6,001 bases of DNA from a bacterium (GTDB taxonomy: Bacteria > UBA9089 > CG2-30-40-21 > SBAY01): assembly GCA_040757115.1 (NCBI GenBank), contig JBFLYA010000225.1, forward strand, positions 1-6,001, read 5' to 3'. Positions within the stretch are counted from its first letter, which is position 1; every line of letters starts with the position of its first letter. Made by a program: the position numbers and the translations under genes. Of the stretch, positions 2,159 through 4,276 are shown in pieces. The notes under the pieces are model-generated. The model was not told where the DNA came from. It did no database searches and saw only the letters and a list, made by a program, of their open reading frames with translations.

Positions 2159-2167
2159 ACCTCCTTT
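2159..2167 (-). promoter_or_regulatory. Strong ribosome binding site of the toroid gene
   Basis: AAAGGAGGT on the minus strand is a near-perfect anti-Shine-Dalgarno complement, 8 bases before the ATG at 2150. It lies just outside the mobile element and the target duplication. Before insertion it would have been inside the last codons of the deacetylase gene (Lys-Gly-Gly), so it is the original coupled site and was not brought in by the element. Confidence 0.85.
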
Positions 2168-2170
2168 CGG

Positions 2171-2179
2171 GACTTTTAT
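2171..2179. repeat. Target-site duplication, left copy
   Basis: GACTTTTAT (ATAAAAGTC on the minus strand) is repeated perfectly at 2573-2581, just outside the two ends of the 393-bp element. The identity extends two more bases (TA), because the element's own end also begins with TA. Confidence 0.8.
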
Positions 2180-2194
2180 TAGAATTCTGCAAAA
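2180..2194 (+). repeat. Terminal inverted repeat, left end of the element
   Basis: TAGAATTCTGCAAAA. It pairs with the complement of 2558-2572 with two mismatches (AA against GG at positions 4-5), and the core TTCTGCAAAA is identical. Confidence 0.8.
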
Positions 2195-2260
2195 CCAAGG
2201 AACTATAGTTTTTAAGCGGGTATTTAAAACCTCTATTTTTATCAATTTCCTCCAAAGAGC

Positions 2261-2297
2261 AAAATGCAAAAAGCAAATATAAAAATTACATATCAAA
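2261..2297 (+). repeat. Internal inverted repeat, left arm, flanking the four-helix-bundle remnant
   Basis: AAAATGCAAAA (2261-2271) is an exact inverted match to TTTTGCATTTT at 2489-2499. The adjacent 16-base block at 2282-2297 matches the complement of 2477-2492 at 15 of 16 positions. The arms lie well inside the terminal repeats and border the coding remnant closely. This resembles the pairing ends that let 23S rRNA intervening sequences fold as a stem. The sequence match is direct; the link to intervening sequences is inferred. Confidence 0.6.
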
Positions 2298-2304
2298 ATG
2301 TAAA
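2276..2304 (-). promoter_or_regulatory. Possible sigma70-type promoter inside the element, directed at the toroid gene
   Basis: On the minus strand, TTTACA (complement of 2299-2304) and TATATT (complement of 2276-2281) are exactly 17 bases apart. Each matches five of six bases of the consensus -35 and -10 boxes. Transcription would start near 2269 and run toward the toroid and formyltransferase genes. Such matches are common by chance in DNA this AT-rich, and the boxes overlap the internal repeats, so this is a hypothesis only. Confidence 0.3.
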
Positions 2305-2305
2305 A

Positions 2306-2497
2306 TTATCTCTTTCCTTTCAGCGTTAAAATACTTGAAGCAAAGATATTACCAAATTCCTCCAACTCTTTGAGAAACCGTGCTACTTTCTCTGGTTTAG
2401 CATGTTTACTATCACGAAGTAATGCAAGCCATAACTTACTTTCGTTAACAGTCTTTTCTCGAAGTCCTTTTTGAAATTTGATTTGTAATTTTGCATT
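2306..2497 (-). pseudogene. Four-helix-bundle (S23, 23S rRNA intervening-sequence) protein, C-terminal remnant
   Basis: The minus-strand frame ending in TAA at 2306-2308 encodes a stretch starting KGLREKTVNESKLWLALLRD, followed by an acidic/basic helix and ending in IFASSILTLKGKR. This is the pattern of the last two helices of the S23/IVP four-helix-bundle family (PF05635, TIGR02436), including the E-S-K-x-W-L segment and a final IxASSI helix. The usual first half, with its G-S-x-A-N-I-A-E-like region, is absent. The frame instead enters low-complexity AAATTACAAATC-type DNA and meets a stop at 2498-2500, with no in-frame ATG. Family members are about 115-130 aa and only about 55 recognisable residues remain, so it is treated as a truncated relic. 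It sits inside the mobile element, bordered by inverted repeats. Confidence 0.75.
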
Positions 2498-2499
2498 TT
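2477..2499 (-). repeat. Internal inverted repeat, right arm
   Basis: This is the partner of 2261-2297: TTTTGCATTTT at 2489-2499 is an exact inverted match, and 2477-2492 matches 15 of 16. It marks the point where recognisable S23 coding sequence gives way to low-complexity DNA. The adjoining 2503-2517 adds two TATTTGAT-type units. Confidence 0.6.
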
Positions 2500-2557
2500 A
2501 ATATTTGATATTTGATTTAATTTCAGGTCTAACTCTCAGTTATCTCTCCTAATCCTA

Positions 2558-2572
2558 TTTTGCAGAACCCTA
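2558..2572 (-). repeat. Terminal inverted repeat, right end of the element
   Basis: On the minus strand this reads TAGGGTTCTGCAAAA. Its first three bases are the present stop codon of the deacetylase gene, so the element end overlaps that coding sequence. Confidence 0.8.
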
Positions 2573-4276
2573 GACTTTTATTAAAAATTCCTTTGTCGCC
2601 TCTTTGGTGATTAACATACATTCCGTCTCGGATAAAGGGTGAAGGTCACACTTAACCCCCTCAATGGCAAGATTTTTTAAATTAATATTACTGAGTTTAA
2701 AAGAAAAATCTCTTTCTATGAGTATGTCAGAAATACATCTATACTCAAATCTGTCTTCTTTTATTATTCTAACCGCTTCACGCCTTTTCCACCACTGAAT
2801 AATATCCTGACATAATCTCACATAAATTTTATTCTCAGATAACCATTCTAATATCTCTTCATATATTCTTTCCCGGCCTGGATTTTCTTTTTCATTAAAT
2901 CCCTGTTGATGCCAGAGAATTATACCTAATCCATTATAGTTTTTAGCCATTTCCAATAACCTTTTGATATTGGTTAATGCTTCATCTGGGGAGTATTTCT
3001 GATAAGTAAATAATGTCGTATCCATAATTATCAGTGGTAACTCGATTAATGGCAATTTTTTATTCTCTTTAATATGATAAAGATACAAAGGGAAACTGCA
3101 TCCTGTTCGGAATCCTTCATGGTCAGCATAGCCAACCGTAGTATCATATTCAAAACCTGCCTCTGTATAAACTTGCCATGTGACCTCCGGATTAAATCTT
3201 AGATAATGACCTCTAATGCCGTTGATAGGATAACTTGATATTTTCTCAACTCGCTTCTTTTCACATAAAACTTGATTGTGCCTATTATAAGAATCATAAC
3301 TTGCGTGTAATCCAATCTCAAATCCTTGTTGACTAATTTCTTTAACAATATTTTTTAGTTTTTTATTTCTGATTTTATATGTACTATTATCTGCTAATAG
3401 ATAAAAGGAAGAGAGATAGCCGTATTGTTTTTCTAATCGGACTATTTTCTCAAAATTCCAGTAAGGGTCCTCATATCGCAAGCAATTATAAATCTCTAAT
3501 ATTCCATTTTGAATCCATTGATATTTACATTTTAGAGTTCCGACGATTATCTCTCTTATTCCTTTTTCCCATAGTTTCCATTTCTGAATATCGTCCACAT
3601 CATGCGTTAAACAAACTGCTGATATTCTTCCTTCTGGCCAGTACCACTTCTGAACGAGAACCTCTTTTTGCCTCTTTGCACAATATAAAAATATTTGCTG
3701 TAAGAAGGTTAGATAAATGCTGACAATCGGTGTTTCAACAAGTTTATCCAACATACTGTAAGAAGATAAGAACCTATCGTGAATATCTCTTTTAAGTGAT
3801 AGAATTTGCTCCTGACATGTCACTAAATAGAATGTCGAGGCAATAATATCAATTTTAATGTCTATTATGGTTACATTCCCCTGTTGTCTGGTAGATAAAA
3901 TATCATTATCAAAACAAAGATTTTCAGCGTCAAGATAAGTAATTTTTTTTAAAATTTCTGATAAGAATTTATTTTCTAAAGTAACGATTTCCTGCCAATA
4001 GGATTGTGTTTTATCTTTATCCAGCTTAGACTTGAAAAGGGAACGAAGCGATATAAATTCTTGACTACAAGGGATATTGACAATTATTCCTGTTTTTTCA
4101 AGACAATTGGGAAGACTGTCTCCATAATTTATTATCAACAAAGGGTTAGTTTTAATAAGTTCCTTATGATTAGAAGAAACAACATAAGAAATCCCTATGG
4201 TATTAAGTAATATCTCAAATACATAGGTAATCTCGTTATCAATTGCAGAATCCCAGTTTTTATATATTCCAATCAT
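2570..4276 (-). CDS. Polysaccharide deacetylase (NodB-like/CE4-type) with large N-terminal domain
   Basis: This 568-residue protein has an N-terminal region of about 200 residues without catalytic motifs, then a deacetylase domain at roughly 215-500. It begins with T224-H-D-V-D228, the variant of the metal/catalytic-base motif (TFDDG in classical CE4). H324 in GLHASYD (322-328) follows, then R355-G-H-Y-L-R-F361 and W455-H456 near the end of the barrel. These match the deacetylases of surface-polysaccharide clusters rather than classical chitin deacetylases. The last 60-70 residues look like a small beta-rich appendage. Expected reaction: removal of N- or O-acyl groups from a sugar. No signal peptide is visible, suggesting a cytoplasmic lipid-linked or nucleotide-linked substrate. 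The start overlaps the acyltransferase stop (ATGA), and its own Shine-Dalgarno is weak, pointing to coupling. The 3' end is truncated by six codons through the inserted element; the catalytic motifs are untouched. Confidence 0.85.
   Translation of the reverse strand: MIGIYKNWDSAIDNEITYVFEILLNTIGISYVVSSNHKELIKTNPLLIINYGDSLPNCLEKTGIIVNIPCSQEFISLRSLFKSKLDKDKTQSYWQEIVTLENKFLSEILKKITYLDAENLCFDNDILSTRQQGNVTIIDIKIDIIASTFYLVTCQEQILSLKRDIHDRFLSSYSMLDKLVETPIVSIYLTFLQQIFLYCAKRQKEVLVQKWYWPEGRISAVCLTHDVDDIQKWKLWEKGIREIIVGTLKCKYQWIQNGILEIYNCLRYEDPYWNFEKIVRLEKQYGYLSSFYLLADNSTYKIRNKKLKNIVKEISQQGFEIGLHASYDSYNRHNQVLCEKKRVEKISSYPINGIRGHYLRFNPEVTWQVYTEAGFEYDTTVGYADHEGFRTGCSFPLYLYHIKENKKLPLIELPLIIMDTTLFTYQKYSPDEALTNIKRLLEMAKNYNGLGIILWHQQGFNEKENPGRERIYEEILEWLSENKIYVRLCQDIIQWWKRREAVRIIKEDRFEYRCISDILIERDFSFKLSNINLKNLAIEGVKCDLHPLSETECMLITKEATKEFLIKV
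2573..2581. repeat. Target-site duplication, right copy
   Basis: GACTTTTAT is identical to 2171-2179. On the minus strand it encodes the last three codons before the stop (Ile-Lys-Val) of the deacetylase, so it is the original gene sequence and the left copy is the duplicate. Confidence 0.8.

Follow-up and report, generated by a model that had tools for sequence, protein, structure and literature searches.

The window, a 6,001-bp stretch of bacterial contig JBFLYA010000225.1, carries two minus-strand protein genes separated by a short insert. The upstream gene encodes a polysaccharide-deacetylase-like protein with DUF7033 (2570–4276), and the downstream gene an alpha/alpha-toroid protein (945–2150) whose start codon lies 30 bp from the insert. 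The insert is 393 bp long (2180–2572, minus strand) and is bounded by terminal inverted repeats (TIRs) of 15 bp each that match at 13 of 15 positions, the left one being TAGAATTCTGCAAAA (2180–2194, plus strand) and the right one TTTTGCAGAACCCTA (2558–2572), which reads TAGGGTTCTGCAAAA on the minus strand. A perfect 9-bp target-site duplication, GACTTTTAT, flanks these ends at 2171–2179 and 2573–2581. The left TIR faces the Shine-Dalgarno sequence of the toroid gene, AGGAGG (2160–2165, minus strand), which starts 5 bp past the duplication edge; the site as a whole reads ATAAAAGTC/CCGAA/AGGAGG. Within the insert lies a decayed gene of the S23/23S-rRNA-IVP four-helix-bundle family (2306–2496) on the minus strand, reading toward the toroid gene. 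Both the TIRs and the duplication are as claimed in a preliminary description made from the sequence alone. That description also gave a 393-bp interior without a transposase; no transposase ORF was found within 2180–2572, but 393 bp is the whole element including its TIRs, and the interior measures 363 bp. No Rfam family matched the window, no plasmid match to the full element was found, and promoter and terminator scans of the element gave nothing above chance.

The insertion was predicted to be reversible on paper. Excision of the element with one duplicate extends the deacetylase from IKV by PKGGSN to a TGA that overlaps the toroid ATG (TGATG), as anticipated, and the present stop is indeed supplied by the element: the TAG that opens the right TIR is in frame and ends the protein at 568 aa, leaving its C-terminus six residues shorter. 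An uninterrupted junction, proposed as a check, is present at locus L129 of G001, a sister species of the same genus. Window flanks joined by script matched this genome without gaps at 98.0% over 4704 bp. The sister site has one copy of the 9-bp repeat, lacks the element and also contains AGGAG; its deacetylase is 96% identical, in a 574-aa frame (568 + 6), and terminates in IKVPKGDSN with the TGA overlapping the toroid ATG (TGATG). The real extension differs from the predicted one by a single residue. Judged against this sequence, the insertion in the window split a TGATG-coupled pair and cost the deacetylase six codons; the toroid gene kept its own ribosome-binding site. The proposal of a small mobile element in a coupled junction, with a reconstructable event, is borne out by the pre-insertion sequence in the sister and by the element's multiple copies. 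TIRs, a target duplication with an empty site in a relative, multiple short copies and the lack of a transposase are features expected of a MITE, a further one being an autonomous transposon with the same ends (see below), and the 393-bp insert is confirmed as a genuine transposase-less mobile element.

Further copies of the ends, also expected, were abundant: TAGRRTTCTGCAAAA with at most one mismatch gave 156 matches in the 4.3-Mb source genome, and the reversed pattern gave none. Searching by interior sequence recovered about 52 left ends in the source genome and six in the sister. Source-genome copies are mostly 250–600 bp long. The best full copy (L003:1039–1622) spans 584 bp, has a duplication with one mismatch and encodes an intact 123-aa S23/23S-rRNA-IVP protein (PF05635; TIGR02436 at 4e-23) with a PDB relative, 2rld; a second intact S23 gene is found in the L011 copy. 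As read from alignments, the S23 gene of the window keeps its start region and last 49 codons, has lost ~176 bp and is frame-shifted. Over those 49 codons it agrees with the intact L003 protein at 44 of 49 residues (90%). The gene is broken in most source-genome copies and absent from the cousin elements described below. Because the 584-bp relative keeps the gene intact, S23 is cargo and not the remnant of a transposase. At least 23 S23/23S-rRNA-IVP genes or fragments in the source genome score above the family cut-off, most of them outside elements of the window's own family (hereafter the A family).

When the flanks of all source-genome copies were aligned, CCTCC stood nearly always outside the left end; this is the complement of the Shine-Dalgarno sequence of a gene reading away from the element. 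GGAG occurred within 35 bp outside 43 of 55 left ends and 2 of 45 right ends in that genome. Exact spacing was measured in a pooled set of 68 non-redundant insertions with duplications, drawn from 12 genomes. In 49 of the 68, GGAG lay at exactly offset 6 from the gene-side duplication edge (AGGAG at 5), with four at offset 5, three at offset 7 and almost none elsewhere. Random positions have GGAG at that offset in 0.57% of cases, giving a binomial P of about 1e-94. This value assumes independent insertions; A-family copies are related, but their insertion sites differ, so each was counted as a separate event. Anchored insertions came from 11 of the 12 genomes, including KSB1 and Calditrichia, and AGGAG was found at offset 5 in 17 of 27 of the source genome's own insertions and in 23 of 28 elsewhere. 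An unrelated element in the same genome (B family, with 8-bp duplications) had GGAG outside only 4 of 42 ends.

Base composition at the anchored sites is NNNWAAGGAGG, the fourth position being without G or C in all 49. Their duplications measure 8 (3 insertions), 9 (20), 10 (12), 11 (9), 12 (4) or 13 bp (1). A description as a 9-bp duplication plus 0–4 extra bases was rejected, as the duplications are simply 8–13 bp; their length floats while the gene-side edge is fixed, and the distance to the TIR thus varies slightly. A start codon with an ORF follows 24–33 bp from the TIR in 36 of the 49. Among the 19 insertions that lack GGAG at offset 6, the motif is displaced or degenerate in several (GGAGG nearer or farther by one or two bases, AAGGG, AAGGA), and seven have no convincing AGGAG-like motif nearby. 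Insertion 5 bp ahead of AGGAGG follows the target rule of this family and is not an accident of this operon. The family, which spans several bacterial phyla, integrates at a nearly fixed 5 bases upstream of ribosome-binding sites, a rule for which we found no precedent: a search of the literature on the TIR sequence and on transposons or MITEs that target Shine-Dalgarno sites returned nothing relevant, which is weak evidence given that most subscription journals were not covered. Short repeats resembling TTGGTAATTGGT also abound in the intergenic DNA of the source genome, and the duplicated target bases often come from them (flanks at L133, L143 and L174, for example).

The breadth of the rule depends on how genomes were reached. 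Kinship or the TIR alone, with no Shine-Dalgarno criterion, led to seven genomes (G001–G004, G367, G139 and G276), and these show the same spacing. Genomes G061–G064 (KSB1, Calditrichia) were reached by a pattern requiring CCTCC near the TIR, after which their elements were collected by TIR alone. Across G003, G004 and G061–G064, a Shine-Dalgarno sequence was found on a side in 37 of 43 elements, against 10% in the control. With the source genome and the pattern-search seed loci excluded, the exact offset was met in 24 of 32 insertions. Elements in KSB1 and Calditrichia have only the TIRs in common with the window family. These and the other cousins (G003, G004) are mostly 130–230 bp long and have no S23 gene, and because their interiors are unrelated and often palindromic, it is the ends, not the interior, that carry target specificity. 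Orientation is nearly fixed in the A family and mixed in G061, G064 and G004. The family has a patchy distribution, exact TIRs being present in only 8 of 386 sampled genomes. REP-like palindromes lie between the TIRs of many cousins (e.g., GTCATTGCGAGCGATAGCGAAGCAATC and GGTAGCCGCAACCTTTAGGTTGCG; L190:1446, L220, L226, L230, L301–L340).

We hypothesize, and consider it probable, that the window element is a non-autonomous transposon, a MITE with a dead S23 gene, which is mobilised in trans and whose target is chosen by the Shine-Dalgarno motif. A trans-acting transposase, not found here, would recognise TAG(A/G)(G/C/A)TTCTGCAAAA ends (a consensus also written TAG(A/G)(G/C)TTCTGCAAAAT). The integration complex is inferred to bind WAAGGAGG as duplex DNA and to join one strand ~5 bp upstream of it; the other strand would be joined at a floating position 8–13 bp further upstream, which would account for duplications that vary in length but keep one edge fixed. 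In the A family the left end faces the gene, so that the S23 cargo reads in the gene's direction. That AGGAGG is read directly as a duplex is an inference, as are the sequence in which the strands are joined and any consequence for expression; the data do not separate recognition of the duplex from that of single-stranded DNA, an R-loop or RNA.

Selection might produce a similar distribution if insertion were wide across intergenic DNA and copies upstream of ribosome-binding sites survived, whether because genes there stay uncut, because translation is not blocked or because expression is helped. The 36 of 49 anchored insertions that precede a start codon with an ORF fit this idea, as does the skew between the two A-family ends (43/55 versus 2/45), and the fixed A-family orientation could still be explained by selection. 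In sampled loci of the source genome (G000), moreover, 34 of 52 WAAGGAGG sites are followed by a gene, that is, they are genuine gene starts anyway. However, purifying selection would clear insertions from ribosome-binding sites and coding DNA, but selection sets a minimum distance and not an exact one, whereas a single offset holds in 49 of 68 insertions while duplication length floats; the B family of the same genome is not found near Shine-Dalgarno sites; and the window insertion itself truncates a gene. We consider an origin by selection quite unlikely. Because the anchoring is exact, it points to target recognition instead, although site recognition is itself inferred and the transposase was not found. 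Recognition of the DNA motif alone would suffice, and translation need not be involved, because a gene follows WAAGGAGG sites at large (34/52) about as it follows anchored insertions (36/49).

Recognition could also be coupled to RNA or the ribosome, through pairing with an anti-Shine-Dalgarno-like guide or through use of translated or transcribed DNA, instead of depending on a protein that reads AGGAGG in the duplex. The 3' end of 16S rRNA is complementary to the target, the cut is inferred to lie just outside the point where pairing would end, and the sense strand of A-family elements runs with the gene. Yet neither a guide-like RNA nor a reverse transcriptase or partner gene was seen, some anchored sites (e.g., L167) have no obvious gene behind the motif, and the combination of TIRs and two-sided duplications is a usual mark of DNA transposases. 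We regard such coupling as unlikely, and have similarly little confidence in its extension, in which site finding by an anti-Shine-Dalgarno guide or the like would make insertion 5' of Shine-Dalgarno sequences a built-in mode of spread across phyla. That the S23 four-helix-bundle protein itself drives mobility is hardly credible. Its relative Avd assists diversity-generating retroelements, the longest copies contain no gene other than an intact S23, and a weak resemblance to Avd was seen in one copy; but the same TIRs and target rule occur in S23-less elements of 130–230 bp in G003, G004, KSB1 and Calditrichia, and S23 is broken in most of the source genome's own copies.

The Shine-Dalgarno-anchored transposon that we favor resembles several known systems in part. 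Like bacterial MITEs such as Correia, RUP and BOX-like repeats, these elements are short, TIR-bounded, AT-rich, multicopy and intergenic, lack a transposase and generate target duplications; unlike them, the window family has duplications fixed at one edge and floating in length, and a gene is present in one subfamily. Reviews of MITEs, in the passages searched, state an intergenic preference and give no fixed Shine-Dalgarno spacing (PMC10969869, PMC3049150). The 23S rRNA intervening sequences (e.g., the Coxiella IVS, PMC4990558) share the protein family (PF05635, TIGR02436) and inverted AT-rich repeats around the gene. In the window, by contrast, the S23 gene is cargo between transposon ends and the element lies between two protein genes, not in a 23S rRNA gene. 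As in site-specific transposons such as Tn7, insertion occurs at a defined distance from an adjoining host sequence that determines its position; here, however, the motif is a short signal at thousands of genes and offers many sites, and no Tn7-type genes were seen. Several cousin interiors are palindromes like those of REP/BIME repeats, but the window family has TIRs and 8–13-bp target duplications, both of which, to our knowledge, REPs lack.

If the proposed rule is correct, such a transposon would have thousands of near-equivalent targets, all lying immediately outside genes and ahead of their ribosome-binding regions. This would explain high copy number without the killing of genes, as well as the wholesale replacement of leader regions and the splitting of coupled operon junctions. 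The fixed edge and floating second cut constrain the integration mechanism, and the occurrence of the rule in lineages with only TIRs in common makes it directly testable once the transposase is known.

A full-length transposase with these ends, hoped for in the preliminary description, was not found among PF01609 loci in G000–G004, among PF13808 loci in nine genomes, or near lone TIRs. The search covered these two families only, in genomes that are mostly fragmented. None of the PF01609 loci (IS4/IS1634/IS1380/IS5/IS1182-type) had the TIRs; PF13808 (ISAs1 family) matched well once, in G004, and weakly twice, again without them. In the single-contig genome G367, where ten of the 32 TIR matches were viewed, and in G139 and G276, lone TIRs led only to host genes. 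An apparent 2.1-kb TIR pair at L269 was rejected as an element since it encloses host genes, and TIR matches in viral contigs were rejected as being at chance level without paired ends.

Other mobile DNA was noted in the source genome. An IS4-type element of 1990 bp at locus L061 (C158) has perfect 26-bp TIRs, CAATACTGTTCGGCATGATTTTTGCT, which bear no relation to those of the A family. The B family has ends GGTGGTGTCTGAAAATAAC and TAGATTAAGACACCACC, 8-bp duplications and at least 21 complete copies (L018–L029, L036, L039 and L040). A single B-type end, TATTTTCAGACACCACC, lies ~0.8 kb downstream of the frame at an IS1634-family transposase locus (L068, C66), which is possibly a relative of the B-family mobiliser. 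An A element, truncated but with its right TIR retained, is also nested inside the B family, and this chimera went on to spread.
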